Source of the DNA: Bacteroidota bacterium
Lineage (GTDB): Bacteria > Bacteroidota > Bacteroidia > JACCXN01
DNA: 15,590 nt
Direction: 5' to 3'
NCBI GenBank assembly: GCA_013696965.1
Contig: JACCXN010000104.1
Coordinates: forward strand, 1 to 15,590
A program made the translations under genes and the position numbers. The notes under the pieces are model-generated. The model worked only from the letters and a program-made list of their open reading frames with translations, was not told the DNA's origin and did not search any database. Shown here in pieces: positions 795 through 15,590 of the stretch (its first letter is position 1; the number at the start of each line of letters is the position of its first letter).

Positions 795-880
<86 letters not shown>

Positions 881-4036: not shown

Positions 4037-4063
4037 TGTAACTTTTTCATAACCTCATCCGTC
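4037..4063 (+). promoter_or_regulatory. Putative ECF-sigma promoter of the sigma/anti-sigma operon
   Basis: TGTAACTTTTT (4037-4047), 7 nt, then TCATCCGTC (4055-4063). A GTAAC -35 and CGTC -10 separated by 17 nt is the kind of spacing ECF sigma factors use, and it does not resemble the TAnnTTTG housekeeping box. The same motif with identical spacing precedes the gene at 5836. Being upstream of the sigma gene itself, it suggests autoregulation. About 31 nt separate its end from the ATG at 4095. Confidence 0.7.
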
Positions 4064-4094
4064 TCACCAAAAAAGATATTACTTTTATAGTGCA

Positions 4095-4580
4095 ATGAGC
4101 CCTTCGGAATACAATACATGTGTGGATGCTTATTCGGACAATCTTTACCGCTTTATCCTGAAAAACATTAAAGATAAAGATAAGGCAAAGGATATTGTAC
4201 AGGACACCTATGAAAAATTATGGATAAATTGTTCTGAACTGGAATTTTCAAAAGCAAAATCATGGATGTTTACAACTGGTTATCGTACCATGATTGATCT
4301 TTTAAGAAGAGAAAAAAAACAAGGAAAGTTTGATGAAACGGATCTTTCGGTGTTTTCACATGAAAAAAATTATTCTGATTTACAGGAAATTTTACATCAT
4401 GCAATAAACAAACTTCCAGCTGATCAAAAAGCAGTGGTTATGCTAAGAGATTATGAAGGATATTCCTATGAGGAAATTAGCGGAATTACAGGGTTGTCCG
4501 AGGCCCAGGTAAAGGTTTATATTTTCAGAGCAAGAACTTTTTTAAAAAAATATTTAGGAAGCATAGAAACATTGGTATGA
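4095..4580 (+). CDS. ECF-family RNA polymerase sigma factor
   Basis: The 161-residue protein has the two-domain layout of extracytoplasmic-function sigma-70 factors. Region 2 spans about residues 10-77, with the helix KAKDIVQDTYEKLWIN and the -10 recognition/melting part SWMFTTGYRTMIDLLRREKK. Region 4 spans about 97-153, with LPADQKAVVMLRDYEGYSYEEIS and the helix-turn-helix ending in SEAQVKVYIFRARTFLKK. Regions 1 and 3 are absent, as usual. It would direct RNA polymerase to the GTAAC/CGTC promoters seen at 4037 and 5722. Its stop codon overlaps the next start (ATGA at 4577-4580), implying translational coupling with the probable anti-sigma factor. The ECF subgroup cannot be named without a search. 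Confidence 0.92.
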   Translation: MSPSEYNTCVDAYSDNLYRFILKNIKDKDKAKDIVQDTYEKLWINCSELEFSKAKSWMFTTGYRTMIDLLRREKKQGKFDETDLSVFSHEKNYSDLQEILHHAINKLPADQKAVVMLRDYEGYSYEEISGITGLSEAQVKVYIFRARTFLKKYLGSIETLV

Positions 4581-5713
4581 GCATTACTTTTAACAATTAC
4601 GAAAGCTGGTTTTTAGATTATCATGAGGGCAAACTGAATGAGGATCAGAAAGAAATGGTTTTACTTTTTTTGGAACAAAATGCAAAGCTCCTCGAGGAAT
4701 TTAATGCTTTTGATAACACCTTTGTACTCACCGAAAATTTCGTTTTATTTGAAGGCAAAGAAAATTTAAAAGCTCCCGAGGCCAGTGATTTTGACACTCT
4801 TTTTGTTGCCTATATTGAAAACGAACTTAACCCTGAGCAGAAGAAAAAAACAAATGAATTGATTCGTGGCAACAAAAAATTGAGTGAAGAATTCTCCCTG
4901 TTTAAAAAAACAGTGTTAAAGCCTGATATGTCAATTCGTTTTACAGGAAAGAAAAAATTAAAAAAAGGCAATAAAGGAGTTATCCGGTTCATGTATTATA
5001 CAGGCGCAGTGGCAGCAGCAGCTTGCGTTCTTTTCTTTTCGTTAAATTTTTCCGATTGGTTTAAGCCAAATAACCCCGGAAATACAATTACACATCAATC
5101 TTCTGATACGATAAAATCAAAAAATAATAATCATAACCTATTAAACTTGGAGCCCATTCAAATTGTTGAAGAAATAAAGAAGGAAAACAAATTTGAAAAG
5201 GAAAACAAAAATTCATTTTCAATTGCAAATTTGATCCAGGAGAACAACAACAAAAGAAATCCAGATACAAAACATCCGATGGAAGTTAAAGAACTAATCA
5301 AGACTCCAATGCTGAGTGAGGAAAAGGCTAGTCTTGCTGTAAATAATATCCATGAGGGGAATGCTTTGAAAGACACAGTGATTGAAGAACAAAACGATAT
5401 TTTATTTGCCAGCAACAGCAATGCTGCTGTTTTTGAAAAAGATCCTGAAAAAACTGAACCCGCAAATGAATTCTTAACACCAAAGGAAATGGTGATACAA
5501 CGTATAAGAAGCATAACATCAATAGAACAACCAGGGGAAGGGAATTCAGGGAAAATAAGCTTCTGGGAAATAGCTGATGTTGGTTCATATGGCATTTCAA
5601 AATTAACAGGAAAAAAATTCAAGGTTTCAGGCGGCACAAACAATAAGGGGGAAGTAGCATCCTTTGCAATTGTTTCTGATCGGTTTGGATTTTCACATTC
5701 TACTTCAAAATAA
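4577..5713 (+). CDS. Membrane-anchored protein, probable anti-sigma factor with duplicated N-terminal unit
   Basis: No family is recognised with certainty, but context and architecture suggest the cognate anti-sigma factor. Residues 1-135 are soluble and highly charged, residues 138-157 form one hydrophobic segment (YYTGAVAAAACVLFF), and about 220 residues follow that would lie in the periplasm: a low-complexity N/E/K-rich linker (about 165-330), then a more ordered end (SFWEIADVGSYGISKLTG, residues about 328-378). The cytoplasmic part contains two similar units, around 12-46 (FLDYHEGKLNEDQKE...EEFNAF) and 74-110 (LFVAYIENELNPEQKK...EEFSLFK), each like the short N-terminal helix pair of Bacteroidota anti-sigma proteins. 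No HxxxCxxC zinc motif is present. The start overlaps the sigma-factor stop by 4 nt. Confidence 0.65.
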   Translation: MSITFNNYESWFLDYHEGKLNEDQKEMVLLFLEQNAKLLEEFNAFDNTFVLTENFVLFEGKENLKAPEASDFDTLFVAYIENELNPEQKKKTNELIRGNKKLSEEFSLFKKTVLKPDMSIRFTGKKKLKKGNKGVIRFMYYTGAVAAAACVLFFSLNFSDWFKPNNPGNTITHQSSDTIKSKNNNHNLLNLEPIQIVEEIKKENKFEKENKNSFSIANLIQENNNKRNPDTKHPMEVKELIKTPMLSEEKASLAVNNIHEGNALKDTVIEEQNDILFASNSNAAVFEKDPEKTEPANEFLTPKEMVIQRIRSITSIEQPGEGNSGKISFWEIADVGSYGISKLTGKKFKVSGGTNNKGEVASFAIVSDRFGFSHSTSK

Positions 5714-5721
5714 ATAGTGGT

Positions 5722-5748
5722 TGTAACTTTTTGGAAGGTTCATCCGTC
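5722..5748 (+). promoter_or_regulatory. Second putative ECF-sigma promoter, before the GIN/beta-barrel gene
   Basis: TGTAACTTTTT (5722-5732), 7 nt, then TCATCCGTC (5740-5748): identical in both boxes and in spacing to the element before the sigma gene at 4037. The 7-nt middle differs (CATAACC versus GGAAGGT), so this is a shared motif and not a duplicated block. It lies 87 nt before the ATG at 5836, leaving a leader of roughly 80 nt. Confidence 0.7.
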
Positions 5749-5835
5749 ACATTTAAAAACAAGGGCATATTACCGGAATAGCGCTGTTCAAAAAAATGCA
5801 CTTGTTTTTATTTCAATAATTTAAAACAAACACAT

Positions 5836-7434: not shown

Positions 7435-8130
7435 TTATAAAACTTCAAACTTAAATCCAACCCCATGCACATTTGTGATTTTAATAGAAGGGTCTTCTTT
7501 AAGGTATTTCCTAAGCTTGGCAATAAACACATCCATACTTCTTCCAAGAAAATAATCATCGGAACCCCAAATTGTTTTGAGGGCAGTTTCTCTTTTGAGT
7601 ACTTCATTTTTATTCAGGCAAAGCAATCTTAAAATCCCTGCTTCTTTTGTTGTTAAACTTTGGGTTGATGTTGCTGTTGTTAAGGTTAGTTTTGCATGGT
7701 TAAAAATAAATTTGCCAATTTGAAATTCAATTTCTTCCTGCTTTTTAGAAATAATTTTGCAGCGTTTCAGCACTGCTTCTAATCTAAGCACAAATTCTTC
7801 CATATTAAAAGGCTTGGTAATATAATCATCTGCCCCAACCTTGAACCCTTTTATACGATCCTCCTCCATGGCTTTTGCAGTAAGGAATATAATTGGAATA
7901 TCATTTCCTTCATTTCGTATTTCAGTAGCCAGAGTAAATCCATCTTTTTTTGGAAGCATTATGTCCAAAAGGCAAATGTCGAAAGTATCACTTAAAACAG
8001 CCTGCATTGCAGATTGCCCATTGGTATGTAAACTAACTTTATAACCCTTGTGTTCCAGGCTATCTTTAATTACGAAACCAAGATTCAGATCATCTTCAAC
8101 TAGTAATATTTTTACAGCATTTGGTTTCAT
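7435..8130 (-). CDS. OmpR/PhoB-family response regulator
   Basis: This 231-residue protein has a receiver domain (about 6-120) and a winged-helix DNA-binding domain (about 135-230). The acidic pocket is ED at 12-13, the phosphoacceptor is D56 in LLDIMLPKKDG, the switch threonine is T84 in FLTAKA, and the conserved lysine is K106 in ITKPF. The effector domain shows LTTKEAGILRLL, RETALKTIWGSDDYF, RSMDVFIAKLRKYL and the terminal hairpin INVHGVGF-type end, all usual for OmpR members. It would act as a phosphorylation-dependent transcription factor. It follows the sensor kinase gene by 58 nt on the same strand, without an obvious promoter between, so the two form an operon. Target genes are not evident from this window. 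Confidence 0.93.
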   Translation of the reverse strand: MKPNAVKILLVEDDLNLGFVIKDSLEHKGYKVSLHTNGQSAMQAVLSDTFDICLLDIMLPKKDGFTLATEIRNEGNDIPIIFLTAKAMEEDRIKGFKVGADDYITKPFNMEEFVLRLEAVLKRCKIISKKQEEIEFQIGKFIFNHAKLTLTTATSTQSLTTKEAGILRLLCLNKNEVLKRETALKTIWGSDDYFLGRSMDVFIAKLRKYLKEDPSIKITNVHGVGFKFEVL

Positions 8131-8188
8131 AAATAAAATTTCTATTTTTTTATAACTCTTTTAAAAACAATATAATTAGGTTTCAGTG

Positions 8189-9457
8189 TTATTTTTTTGG
8201 CAAATAAATTTCAAACTTGCTTCCATTATTTACTTCGCTTTCCACACTTATTTTTCCTTTGTGAGCTTCTGTCATAATTTTCACATAATTTAAGCCAAGA
8301 CCAAATCCTTTTATATCATGTAAATCTCCAGTGGAAACTCTGTAAAATTTTTCGAATACATGTTTTTGAACTTCCTTACGCATTCCTATTCCATTGTCCT
8401 GAACTGTAATTTTTATTCCTTTTCGGTGGTTTTCGGTAACAATAGTGATTTCTGGGTTTTCAAGAGAATATTTTAATGCATTATCAATTAAATTGGAAAG
8501 GATGTTGTTAAAATGATCCTTATCTACTTCAATAATTTGATCCGAAGCATTTAATTTAAAAATAAAACGACCCTGTTTTTCATTTAAAGCTAGAGAAAAA
8601 CGATTGGCTATTTCATATACAACAGCGTGTACATTTACCGGTGTTTTTATCAATTCATAATCTGCTTTATCAAGAGTAGCAATCTGCAAAAGGCGCTCTA
8701 CCATGCTTTTTAACCTATTGTTCTCTTCAGAAATTATTGTTGAATATCTTTGCAATCTTTCAGGATAATTCACTATGTCGGGTTTGTTAAGCACTTCAGA
8801 AGAAATGGCAATAGTGGAAATTGGAGTTTTAAATTCATGAGTCATGTTATTGATAAAATCGGTAGTTATTTCAGATAGCTTTTTTTGTTTAAGAATTACA
8901 AACATGGTATAGGCAAAAAACACTAATACAACCAGAAGGATAATAGAAGAAAACAACCAAATCCCCATCTGATTTACTAAGTAACTGCCTTTTTCAGGAA
9001 AATACACCCCGAAATAATGACCGTCTTTATCTGATTTTACTGGTAAATAAGTTTGTGTTATTTCCCTTTTTCCCGGAGTTAATGCCACATAATTTCCATA
9101 TATCATGGAATCGGTAAAACAATCGTAAATCCCATATTCAAAATCAAGGCCCAGGTTGCGCGTGGTAAATTCTGCTTTAAGCAAAGATTCCAAAAGATAG
9201 GGGTGAAGAGTATCGTAAATACTAACTACAAAATAATTGGCAGAAATATGTTTTATTGGTTCAATATAAGCTGCAGAATCTCCCCTTAATCTCAAAATAT
9301 CTGTGGCTACATTTCTAAGGGCAACATTTACACTATGGCTAAATTGCTTTTCCTTAATGTCCCAGGCTTTGTTAATCCAGTAAAATTGGGTTACTCCTAT
9401 GCCAAGGATAGAAATAGTAGCAAGTACAATAATGTTGCGTATTATTCTACGGTTCAT
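8189..9457 (-). CDS. Membrane sensor histidine kinase
   Basis: The 422-residue protein has two membrane segments (about 8-27 and 166-189) enclosing a periplasmic sensor region of about 140 residues that I cannot assign to a known fold. HisKA follows with H207 in NNMTHEFKTPIST as the phosphorylated histidine. The catalytic domain has an N box (NNILSNLIDNALKYS, N326), a G1 box (DNGIGM, 354-359), an F box (FEKFYR, 368-373) and a G2 box (GFGLGL, 384-389), so it looks active. No HAMP or PAS domain is evident between the second membrane segment and HisKA. It is the first gene of the kinase/regulator operon and would phosphorylate the OmpR-type protein encoded next. A poor -7 box (CATCTTTG, 9490-9497, minus strand) lies 32 nt before the ATG. 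Confidence 0.93.
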   Translation of the reverse strand: MNRRIIRNIIVLATISILGIGVTQFYWINKAWDIKEKQFSHSVNVALRNVATDILRLRGDSAAYIEPIKHISANYFVVSIYDTLHPYLLESLLKAEFTTRNLGLDFEYGIYDCFTDSMIYGNYVALTPGKREITQTYLPVKSDKDGHYFGVYFPEKGSYLVNQMGIWLFSSIILLVVLVFFAYTMFVILKQKKLSEITTDFINNMTHEFKTPISTIAISSEVLNKPDIVNYPERLQRYSTIISEENNRLKSMVERLLQIATLDKADYELIKTPVNVHAVVYEIANRFSLALNEKQGRFIFKLNASDQIIEVDKDHFNNILSNLIDNALKYSLENPEITIVTENHRKGIKITVQDNGIGMRKEVQKHVFEKFYRVSTGDLHDIKGFGLGLNYVKIMTEAHKGKISVESEVNNGSKFEIYLPKK

Positions 9458-11514: not shown

Positions 11515-11577
11515 TTCTTTTTAGGCATAATTATTTCAATAAAATTTGTGAAGAAATCACAAATAAAGGGAATAACA

Positions 11578-13833
11578 ATGACAAAAAATGTAATGCTTCA
11601 GTTTCTAATCATATGCTTTGTTTTCACACAAAATACTAAGGCTCAATGCATGTTACAAGAGCTTTCTTTGAAAGAAAAAACACAACAATCGGCACTAATC
11701 GTTGAAGCAAGGGTAATTTCGGAAAATTCATTTTGGAACAGGGAACATACACGAATTTACACCTCCTACATTCTTGAAGTTTATAAACTATTTAAAGGTG
11801 TTTTGGATGCTTCACCGGTAAATTTAATCACCGAAGGTGGAACTGTTGAATACAATAAACATAGCGTGCAGCATCAATTGGAACTTAAAGTGGGTGATAT
11901 GGGAATATTTTTCATGGAGCAGAGCCACAATAGTAAATTAAAAAATTTATCTTCCAATGAAGCCGTACTCGTTGCTTATGGGGGAGTTCAAGGATGTATT
12001 AAAATTGATCAACAGTCAAAAACAGCTTCTGATCCTTTCAATTATTATTATGACCTTGATGCGCAATTATATCCTCAAATAATGGCACTTACGGGAGCCT
12101 ATTCAGAAAAGGGCAATTTAGGATTTCCGGAATTTCAAACTGCTTTAAAAGCAGATATTTATATCAGTGATTTTAGTCCTAGTGAAGTAGCAGCTGGAAT
12201 TGAAAGTGAAATTACTATTCGTGGAAGCGGATTTGGAAATGAAAAGGGGTTAAATTCTTATGTGGAATTCAAGGATGCCAATACAGGCGGAATAATGCTC
12301 ATCCAGCCTCTTGCCTCACAATACACATTATGGGAAGATGATAAAATTATCGTGAAAGTGCCTTCAAGGGCAGGAACTGGAAGTTTAAGAGTAAGGAATG
12401 AAACTGTTTTTGCAAACAGTGATGAAGAGTTAAGCGTTACTTATAGTCGTTTAAACGCAATATACAATGGAAATGCCTTTCAAACTAATATTATAAATAA
12501 AAATTCAAATGGTGGATATATCTGGCAAATGAATAGCGATTTTAATTCAAATACCAAAGCAAGCGAGGCTTTTGAAAGAGCTCTTATTTCTTGGAGATGC
12601 AAGACTTATGTTCCTTGGGAAATGGGTAAAACTACTTCTACAAATGTTACAGCAAGCGATGGTATAAATATAATACGATTTGATAACAATTCAGAACTAC
12701 CCGCAGGCGTTCTTGCAGCCTGCTATACTTATTGGAATGGATGCAATGATGAATCTGGTTTTAAATGGTTTGTAAATGAACTGGACATTGTATTTGATGA
12801 TTCTACCAACTGGAGTTATTCCCAGGCTGCTCCTGAATTAGATCAATTTGATCTGGAATCCATCGCCTTGCACGAACTAGGGCATGGCCATCAACTGGGT
12901 CATGTAATTAATCCCAATGGTGTAATGCATTATTCTGTGGCACCGGGAGAATATAAAAAAATATTAAAATCAAATGATATTCAAGGCGGAAGCCTGGTAA
13001 TAGAAAGTAGCAAGAGTAGCAGCTATTGTGGGAAAACGCCCATTATTCCATTAAAGGAATCCGATTGCTCAGGAACCTCAGCAGTAGCAAGTGTACACAT
13101 TGACATTGTTGGAGGAAAAAATTCTGTTTGTGAAAAAGCATGGGTATCATTTGTAGCTATGGCTGAAAATGGAGGAGCTTCTCCTTTATTTGAATGGAAA
13201 ATAAATGGAATTAATACAGGTTCAATTTATTCAACATTCACCACTTCCACTTTGCAAAATAAGGATACTATAACTTGTGTAATGACTTCGAGCTTACCAG
13301 GACTAAGCAGCTTCCCTGTTAGCTCAAATGATTTATATATCACTGTTTCTCCAAAACAACTTCCAGAAGTAATACCCACCGCTGATAGTTTAACTTCCTC
13401 ACTAAATGGAATTTCTTATGCTTGGTTTTGTAATTCTATTCAAATAACAGAAACAAAGAAAACAATAAAGCCAGTACTTTTAGGGAATTACGCAGTCAAA
13501 ATTTGGAATGACGAAGGATGTGAATCTGATAAATCTTTGGTCTATTTATACGATCCATTGGGTATGGAAAATGCAACAAATCTATCTTTTAGCATTCATC
13601 CTAATCCTAGCTCTGGAGTATTTACTATTCAATTAAATGAAGGAAATTTTGCTTTCACCGAAATAACCGTAAGTAATATATTGGGGCAAAAAATATATAA
13701 AAGTCATTTCAGCAACAACAATAAAAAAGAAATTAATTTAATGGGAAATGCAGAAGGAATATATTTTCTAAATATTCGATCAGGAGAAAAAGCATTTGCT
13801 GCAAAAATTATTTTGCAACAGGAAACAAAGTAA
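11578..13833 (+). CDS. Secreted matrixin-like zinc metalloprotease with IPT/TIG domain and T9SS sorting tail
   Basis: The protein (751 residues from this ATG) has a signal peptide (MLQFLIICFVFTQNTKAQ, cleavage near 23). An N-terminal beta domain of unknown role follows (about 35-180). An IPT/TIG domain (about 194-288) contains ISDFSPSEVAAGIES and IRGSGFGN. The protease part (about 310-480) has the zinc site HELGHGHQLGH (432-442) and a probable Met-turn VMHYS (M450). After an Ig-like region, the last 85 or so residues form a type A T9SS sorting domain (FSIHPNPSSGVFTI, then VSNILGQKIY and GIYFLNI), so it should cross the outer membrane by T9SS. An in-frame GTG at 11548 would add 10 residues; the ATG gives a cleaner signal peptide. 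The metzincin glycine before the third histidine is glutamine here. Substrate unknown. Confidence 0.85.
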   Translation: MTKNVMLQFLIICFVFTQNTKAQCMLQELSLKEKTQQSALIVEARVISENSFWNREHTRIYTSYILEVYKLFKGVLDASPVNLITEGGTVEYNKHSVQHQLELKVGDMGIFFMEQSHNSKLKNLSSNEAVLVAYGGVQGCIKIDQQSKTASDPFNYYYDLDAQLYPQIMALTGAYSEKGNLGFPEFQTALKADIYISDFSPSEVAAGIESEITIRGSGFGNEKGLNSYVEFKDANTGGIMLIQPLASQYTLWEDDKIIVKVPSRAGTGSLRVRNETVFANSDEELSVTYSRLNAIYNGNAFQTNIINKNSNGGYIWQMNSDFNSNTKASEAFERALISWRCKTYVPWEMGKTTSTNVTASDGINIIRFDNNSELPAGVLAACYTYWNGCNDESGFKWFVNELDIVFDDSTNWSYSQAAPELDQFDLESIALHELGHGHQLGHVINPNGVMHYSVAPGEYKKILKSNDIQGGSLVIESSKSSSYCGKTPIIPLKESDCSGTSAVASVHIDIVGGKNSVCEKAWVSFVAMAENGGASPLFEWKINGINTGSIYSTFTTSTLQNKDTITCVMTSSLPGLSSFPVSSNDLYITVSPKQLPEVIPTADSLTSSLNGISYAWFCNSIQITETKKTIKPVLLGNYAVKIWNDEGCESDKSLVYLYDPLGMENATNLSFSIHPNPSSGVFTIQLNEGNFAFTEITVSNILGQKIYKSHFSNNNKKEINLMGNAEGIYFLNIRSGEKAFAAKIILQQETK

Positions 13834-14340: not shown

Positions 14341-15590
14341 ATGAAAAAAAATTACATCCTACTTCATTTTATATTAAATTTCTTGCTTTTCCCTGTAATG
14401 GCCCAGTCAAATCAAGCTATTACTGCAATAGGACAAAATAAAACAAAATCCATTAAAGAGCCCTGTGCAACCCATTTGATTCATAACAAATTAATGCAAA
14501 CTGATTCTGAGTACAAAAATCGAATATTGGCAAATGAAGAAACAATTCAAACAATAATACAACAGCAACAAAATAACCGTGCAGCTGCGCCAATATATAC
14601 CATTCCTGTAGTTGTTCATGTTATTCATACTGGTCAGGCAATTGGAACAGGAGTAAATATTTCTGATGCCCAAATATTCAGTGCAATTACTGCATTAAAT
14701 CAGGATTATAGGAAAATGGCAGGAACAAACGGATTTGGAACTGGTGTTGACTCTGAAATAGAATTTTGCCTGGCAGTAAGGGATCCAAACGGACAAGCCT
14801 CCACTGGAATTTTAAGGGTGAATGGATCTTCCGTAACTAATTATTCTACTCAGGGTATTACTGCAGGACAAGGCAGTGGTGCCAATGAAACCACTGTTAA
14901 AGCCTTAAGCAAATGGCCGAATACAAGTTATTATAATATTTGGATTGTTAATGAGATAGAAAACAACAATGGAGGTTCAGGAATCCAGGGATATGCATAT
15001 TATCCGGGAGCAGGATCCGCTGTTGACGGAGCTGTGATAATGTTCAATGCTTTTGGCACTACAGGCAACTTAAAATCCTATACAAACAGGAATAGGGTTG
15101 CTACCCATGAAATGGGTCACGGATTTAATCTAATGCATACATTTGAAGGGGCAAGTTGCACACAGACTAATTGCAGCACTCAAGGTGACCTGTGTTGTGA
15201 TACTCCTCCTCACTTGGGCAACAATACAAGCTGTACAACACGAGAATGTACCAATACACAGCAGGTAGAAAATTACATGGATTATACAAGTGAGACTTGC
15301 CAGAACATGTTTACATCAGATCAGAAAAACAGGATGCGTGCTGCCATAAGTGGAACCAGGGCAAGTTTGCTTACATCTCTTGGCTGCACACCTGTTTATA
15401 CCCTTGATGCAGGAATTTCTGATGTCATAAGTCCCACCCCTTCTACGTGTGCAACAACTTTGAACCCGGTTGTTACCTTAAGGAATTTTGGATCCACCAC
15501 GCTTACCTCAGCTGCTATCAATTTTAACATTGATGGTGGAACAAATCAAGTTTATAACTGGACAGGATCCTTGGCAACAAACCTAACTGT
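14341..15590 (+). CDS. Pappalysin-like M43 zinc metalloprotease, secreted (3' end outside window)
   Basis: An open frame runs from the ATG to the window edge (416 complete codons). It begins with a signal peptide (MKKNYILLHFILNFLLFPVMAQ, 1-22). A pro-region follows, then the catalytic domain typical of the M43B pappalysin/cytophagalysin family: IPVVVHVIH (about 87-95), the zinc site HEMGHGFNLMH (256-266) with E257 as general base, the disulfide-rich GDLCCDTPP segment (about 283-291), and the Met-turn NYMDYTS (M313). From about residue 350 a CARDB-like beta-sandwich begins (LDAGISDVISP, VVTLRNFGSTTLTS). Family members are extracellular proteases, often exported by T9SS; whether a sorting tail is present lies beyond the window. 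It is in the same direction as the upstream metalloprotease but 507 nt away, so probably transcribed separately. Confidence 0.88.
   Translation, partial: MKKNYILLHFILNFLLFPVMAQSNQAITAIGQNKTKSIKEPCATHLIHNKLMQTDSEYKNRILANEETIQTIIQQQQNNRAAAPIYTIPVVVHVIHTGQAIGTGVNISDAQIFSAITALNQDYRKMAGTNGFGTGVDSEIEFCLAVRDPNGQASTGILRVNGSSVTNYSTQGITAGQGSGANETTVKALSKWPNTSYYNIWIVNEIENNNGGSGIQGYAYYPGAGSAVDGAVIMFNAFGTTGNLKSYTNRNRVATHEMGHGFNLMHTFEGASCTQTNCSTQGDLCCDTPPHLGNNTSCTTRECTNTQQVENYMDYTSETCQNMFTSDQKNRMRAAISGTRASLLTSLGCTPVYTLDAGISDVISPTPSTCATTLNPVVTLRNFGSTTLTSAAINFNIDGGTNQVYNWTGSLATNLT

Follow-up and report, generated by a model that had tools for sequence, protein, structure and literature searches.

The locus described here raises the question of whether a two-part sequence, found once before an ECF sigma factor gene and once before a gene for an outer-membrane beta-barrel protein, is the promoter through which that sigma factor acts. 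The window, by which we mean the whole stretch of DNA analysed, comprises 15,590 nucleotides of a Bacteroidota bacterium with a 3.86 Mb draft genome in 106 contigs. On its forward strand, exact copies of TGTAACTTTTT-N7-TCATCCGTC lie at 4037-4063 and 5722-5748. Both boxes are identical between the copies and the 7-nt spacers (CATAACC and GGAAGGT) are unrelated to each other, exactly as the first-pass annotation of this sequence had described. We conclude that the two motifs are very probably -35/-10 promoter elements read by the product of the ECF sigma gene at 4095-4580, which would autoregulate its own operon, control the GIN/barrel gene, and be restrained by the protein encoded at 4577-5713; this reading is drawn from sequence comparison. 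Elsewhere in the window are a tRNA-Ser gene (795-880, minus strand, anticodon GGA), a gene for a metalloprotease of the matrixin type carrying a type IX secretion sorting tail (11548-13833, plus strand), and a gene, cut by the contig end, for another secreted protein with a zinc-binding sequence of the HEMGHGFNLMH type (14341-15588, plus strand).

Each copy can be divided into the parts of an ECF-type promoter. The first predicted ECF-dependent promoter, P1 (4037-4067, plus strand), consists of the -35 element TGTAACTTT, a spacer of 17 nt and the -10 box CGTC, extended to CGTCTCAC. The second, P2 (5722-5752, plus strand), combines TGTAACTTT, 17 nt and CGTCACAT. TGTAAC-N17-CGTC is present at both and fits the pattern expected of ECF-type promoters, namely AAC at -35 and CGT at -10 about 16-17 nt apart. 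From the end of the P1 -10 box to the ECF start codon the distance is 31 nt, and P2 starts 9 nt past the stop codon of the putative anti-sigma gene. Transcription would be expected to start at approximately 4069-4072 from P1 and 5754-5757 from P2. No convincing sigma-A type pair (TTTG / TAnnTTTG) was detected upstream of the ECF gene or the GIN/barrel gene. The hallmarks reported for ECF systems are AAC at -35, CGT at -10, a two-domain sigma factor, cotranscription with an anti-sigma factor, and autoregulation (PMC8103513); all are present here or compatible with this locus, and the promoter architecture is that of a textbook ECF.

The gene that follows P1 (4095-4580, plus strand) encodes a protein of 161 aa with sigma regions 2 and 4 only, the layout of an ECF sigma factor. 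This assignment is supported by Pfam (Sigma70_r2, 8.5e-9; Sigma70_r4_2, 1.7e-18) and by the NCBIfam model sigma70-ECF TIGR02937, which it matches with 76 bits, above the cut-off of 42.9. The nearest equivalog, NCBIfam NF058625 (sigma_PG0214), is matched with 116 bits, 14 bits short of its 130-bit cut-off.

A class-wide search of 395 genomes recovered many orthologs of this ECF gene, as well as GIN-barrel genes. With loci oriented and up to two mismatches allowed over TGTAAC/CCGTC, the motif lies within 400 nt upstream of all 29 class-level ECF orthologs. A named collection, including Marinilabilia, Alkaliflexus, Carboxylicivirga, Labilibacter, Cryomorpha, Natronoflexus, Prolixibacteraceae and many MAGs, provided 78 orthologs with enough upstream DNA. 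TGTAAC-N16/17-CGTC precedes 75 of these at the place of P1, usually 20-41 nt from the start codon; three orthologs deviate by one mismatch (CGTT or CATC), which brings the count to 78/78 at a tolerance of one. When the 78 upstream regions were searched de novo for dyads, the motif was the top dyad (44 + 31, compared with 4-5 in random windows).

In 719 kb of the relatives' loci, 76 matches fall upstream of the ECF gene and 39 at the second position, that is, before the next gene at the place of P2; the forward strand has no matches elsewhere, and the reverse strand has a single one. The motif occurs within 150 nt upstream of 108 of the 544 open reading frames of at least 150 aa, and those listed among the 108 are ECF genes or the second gene, the latter mostly with a signal peptide. 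The random scatter without any link to start codons that the first-pass annotation had named as evidence against a promoter was looked for and did not appear. The fixed distance between motif and ECF gene in distant relatives also bears out its proposal that the sigma factor autoregulates its operon, which at the level of sequence is probable. Its delimitation of the motif held in part: the core shared across relatives is (C)TGTAAC(T/A)(T/A)T ... CGTC-N-(T/C)-A, with 16 or 17 nt between TGTAAC and CGTC and an unconserved middle, and the 'TCATC' ahead of CGTC that P1 and P2 have in common is not conserved in relatives.

Within the window's own genome the motif is confined to this locus. Exact matches to TGTAAC-N12-TCATCCGTC across the 3.86 Mb are P1 and P2 only, with none at one mismatch and three at two mismatches. 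The comparative consensus TGTAACWW-N15-CGTCHYAH, allowing one mismatch, finds P1, P2 and two sites with one mismatch; these two, like the three above, all lie inside open frames of at least 100 aa. The looser pattern GTAAC-N15..19-CGTC has seven other matches, six of which are within long open frames; the exception, outside open frames of at least 100 aa, is a single AGTAAC-N18 match (L003). The motif is absent upstream of the five other ECF genes found by similarity in this genome, and its two other DUF2807 genes (contigs C60 and C83) have no motif site. The expectation that the motif would lead to the rest of the regulon was therefore disappointed in this organism: genome-wide scans of the 106-contig draft found no larger regulon, and there are two sites only, compared with 5-10 per genome in some relatives. 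The organism seems to have a minimal version of the regulon, with two promoters at one locus, insofar as the draft covers it.

Across the 395 genomes, the number of motif sites tracks the ECF ortholog. Sites were counted with TGTAACWW-N14/15-CGTCHYAH, using the reversed pattern as a control. Genomes whose ortholog reaches E<=1e-60 number 55, of which 54 are positive, and contain a mean of 3.8 sites. This falls to 1.33 sites per genome where the ortholog scores 1e-53 to 1e-59, to 1.27 and 0.73 in the next bins, and to 0.39 in the 205 genomes without an ortholog, where the reversed pattern gives 0.38. The association has a Mann-Whitney p of 3e-29, a value overstated because related genomes are not independent. 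Together with the absence of the motif before the other five ECF genes, this co-occurrence supports the earlier proposal that the motif is the recognition site of the 4095-4580 sigma factor.

These counts also bear on the strongest of the alternatives, that several ECFs of the cell share the motif as a general ECF-type promoter, the neighbouring ECF being one user among them. Its core does resemble the general AAC/CGT consensus of ECF promoters (PMC8103513), and overlapping ECF regulons have been suggested for motif SM6 of F. psychrophilum (PMC9723704). In addition, the motif precedes more distant ECF genes in genomes that lack the window's ortholog (L273 in G335, L277 in G169), which suggests, as far as sequence can indicate, a promoter specificity common to related ECF groups; in genomes without the ortholog it is also found ahead of ABC transporters. 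A promoter shared in this way is nevertheless improbable, given that the motif occurs at this locus only in the window's genome, is missing before its five other ECF genes, and drops to control level across genomes without the ortholog.

The gene downstream of P2 (5836-7248, plus strand) encodes a 470-aa protein with a signal peptide, in which a GIN (DUF2807) domain is fused to an outer-membrane beta-barrel domain (Pfam DUF2807, 1.4e-40; OMP_b-brl_2, 2.7e-7). In the class-wide set, the motif lies within 400 nt upstream of 24 of 29 GIN-barrel genes when TGTAAC/CCGTC may differ at up to two positions. In 17 genomes the GIN-barrel gene is unlinked to the ECF gene, being on another contig or, in one case (G192), 328 kb away, and the motif precedes it in 16 of them. 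The second motif is likewise associated with the type of gene that follows. Among the 73 relatives with a readable second gene, it is present in 37 of the 46 in which a barrel/GIN gene is next compared with 2 of the 27 in which it is not (Fisher p 6e-10, again overstated by the relatedness of the genomes); nine relatives have a barrel gene without a second site. The constant element of the target gene across relatives is the beta-barrel, and the GIN fusion occurs in only some, including the window. Genomes of the same family (G001 and G002) have no close ECF ortholog, and G001 retains the motif before its GIN-barrel gene. The sites before unlinked GIN-barrel genes are consistent with the earlier suggestion that the motif drives this gene, as it probably does. 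Convergent to the GIN/barrel gene, on the minus strand at 7435-9457, is a two-component system; its response regulator (7435-8130) is nearest to RprY, at a score below the NCBIfam cut-off.

A less probable alternative, to which we give very little credence, is that another regulator, such as the RprY-like protein (7435-8130), uses the repeat as its operator, or that the repeat arose by a recent local duplication and has no promoter function. The proximity of the two-component system and the presence of two nearly identical copies in one locus would be in keeping with it. The motif is, however, neither palindromic nor directly repeated within itself, and its 16/17-nt spacing variation is typical of -35/-10 pairs. 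Duplication of the region was rejected, as neither the spacers nor the flanks of one copy resemble those of the other and each site is conserved separately. Also against this alternative, the motif stands about 20-41 nt before ECF ortholog starts in distant genomes and is carried by unlinked targets. A chance coincidence of two AT-rich words outside coding sequence, which the restriction to two copies at one locus might suggest, has a negligible probability and is already refuted because the motif is conserved, recurring at the same places in dozens of genomes; the doubt about chance raised in the first-pass annotation was well placed, with no matches in 200 dinucleotide shuffles of the window.

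Promoters read by this sigma factor would reach further genes in relatives. A regulon survey covered forty further motif regions from genomes of several families. The genes after the motif encode DUF2807/GIN proteins (about nine, GIN lipoproteins among them), ABC transporter ATPases, DUF5686/CarboxypepD_reg proteins, one OMP_b-brl_3 barrel, TonB, and proteins with type IX sorting tails. Nine DUF2807 genes among about forty sites represent a strong enrichment because there are only approximately 2-5 such genes per genome. The theme of the motif-preceded genes in relatives is the envelope. In six genomes (L230, L233, L235, L238, L244, L276) the motif lies directly ahead of an orthologous gene for an ABC-transporter ATPase, which is likely a conserved regulon member.

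Between the two promoters lies the gene for a putative anti-sigma factor of 378 aa (4577-5713, plus strand), the start of which overlaps the ECF stop by 4 nt. The 378-aa protein has no match in Pfam or NCBIfam, and its assignment draws on repeat homology, an AF2 model and PDB matches. It consists of two tandem three-helix domains of about 65 aa (aa 2-66 and 67-131), a TM helix at approximately 138-156, a variable tether, and a C-terminus (aa ~328-378) formed by a conserved helix plus three strands. The conserved C-terminal periplasmic domain that follows the tether is encoded at 5471-5710 (aa 299-378), and a PDB structure search with it gave no convincing match. The two N-terminal units are homologous (hhalign E 8e-19) and are modelled by AF2 as two three-helix bundles with a mean pLDDT of 89.5.

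A blind PDB search placed RsiW first, with MucA, RslA and ChrR within the top 15; unit 1 aligns with RsiW and MucA, and unit 2 with RslA and ChrR. These matches are individually weak (Z of 6.5 for RsiW, 5.5 for MucA, 4.8 for RslA and 2.6 for ChrR, all below 8; Foldseek E above 1). As a set they are unlikely to be accidental because four separate anti-sigma factors appear in so short a list. Compared with the ASDI fold, for which a four-helix N-terminal domain is expected, the units are three-helix bundles with only a short turn in place of the fourth helix, and Pfam zf-HC2 is touched weakly by 3 of 37 members of the family. A protein of the same layout is encoded directly 3' of the ECF gene in 73 relatives. 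The protein has two tandem units in the window, as in most relatives; about 14 relatives have three and one has four (L208, among relatives L142-L221), and the position of the TM helix shifts with unit number in the three- and four-unit relatives. On the basis of these models, the tandem three-helix membrane protein may represent a new anti-sigma layout.

On the basis of motif identity, conservation and position, ECF linkage, target gene types and domain layout, all taken from sequence, we infer actual transcription, sigma binding, anti-sigma function and the signal as follows. In the resting cell, the membrane protein (4577-5713) would keep the sigma factor bound to its cytoplasmic three-helix domains. 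Sigma release would follow once an envelope signal reaches the periplasmic tail of the membrane protein, and RNA polymerase with the freed ECF sigma factor (4095-4580) would recognise P1 and P2. From P1 it would amplify its own sigma/anti-sigma operon by positive autoregulation, and from P2 it would induce the downstream GIN/beta-barrel outer-membrane protein.

The module is best compared with characterised ECF systems. It shares with typical ECF/anti-sigma modules (PMC8103513) the two-domain sigma factor, the AAC/CGT boxes, an adjacent membrane anti-sigma candidate and a promoter of its own operon; it differs in that the candidate anti-sigma factor has 2-4 tandem domains with no library match and in its dedicated GIN/barrel target. 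Motif SM6 of F. psychrophilum is also from the Bacteroidota, has a CGT box at -10 and includes an ECF/anti-sigma operon (THC0290_1774/1773), whereas its targets include type IX secretion genes rather than the GIN, barrel, DUF5686, ABC and TonB genes seen here, a comparison made by description (PMC9723704). In P. gingivalis, PG0214-PG0215 (NF058625, sigma_PG0214/GFO_1088 family) likewise consists of an ECF followed by a putative anti-sigma gene, and the neighbouring PG0216 is a DUF4252 protein, not a GIN-barrel (PMC10101095). SigP of P. gingivalis, also a Bacteroidota ECF, targets type IX secretion genes, and its proposed motif C(T)AAA(G/C/T)A(T)A(C)T(A/G)A is unlike TGTAAC-N16/17-CGTC (PMC4800418).

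The Das/Dma system of Bacteroides thetaiotaomicron (ECF21) resembles the present one in its Bacteroidota-specific ECF, membrane-spanning anti-sigma factor, long periplasmic tether and link to an outer-membrane barrel (PMC13088901). The anti-sigma factor Dma itself contains the barrel as its C-terminal domain, whereas the barrel of the present locus is encoded separately, behind a predicted promoter of its own, and the C-terminal ~50 aa of the putative anti-sigma factor are a helix plus three strands instead of a barrel. It is possible, though we regard it as rather unlikely, that the module is a two-piece relative of Dma systems in which anti-sigma factors of a new family, with 2-4 tandem units that bind sigma, sense a separate GIN/barrel protein. 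The long tether and conserved end domain would then span the periplasm toward the GIN/barrel protein, and induction of the sensed barrel by the sigma factor would close a feedback loop between outer and inner membranes.

Searches of the open-access literature found nothing specific on a TGTAAC/CGTC Bacteroidota ECF motif, a GIN-ECF link or tandem anti-sigma domains, and the ECF group, its promoter, regulon and tandem-domain anti-sigma factor appear undescribed. Known ECF promoters of Bacteroidota are few, and the motif pair probably read by this sigma factor provides a precise motif for a widespread ECF group. It also yields a first list of envelope genes predicted to be under this ECF, including GIN/DUF2807 proteins, beta-barrels, DUF5686, ABC transporters and TonB. 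Recognisable class I anti-sigma domains have been reported near only 6% of Bacteroidota ECFs (PMC7406223), and the candidate tandem-domain family may help account for the missing anti-sigma factors. Finally, the uncharacterised GIN domain would be tied to a regulon of the envelope-stress type.
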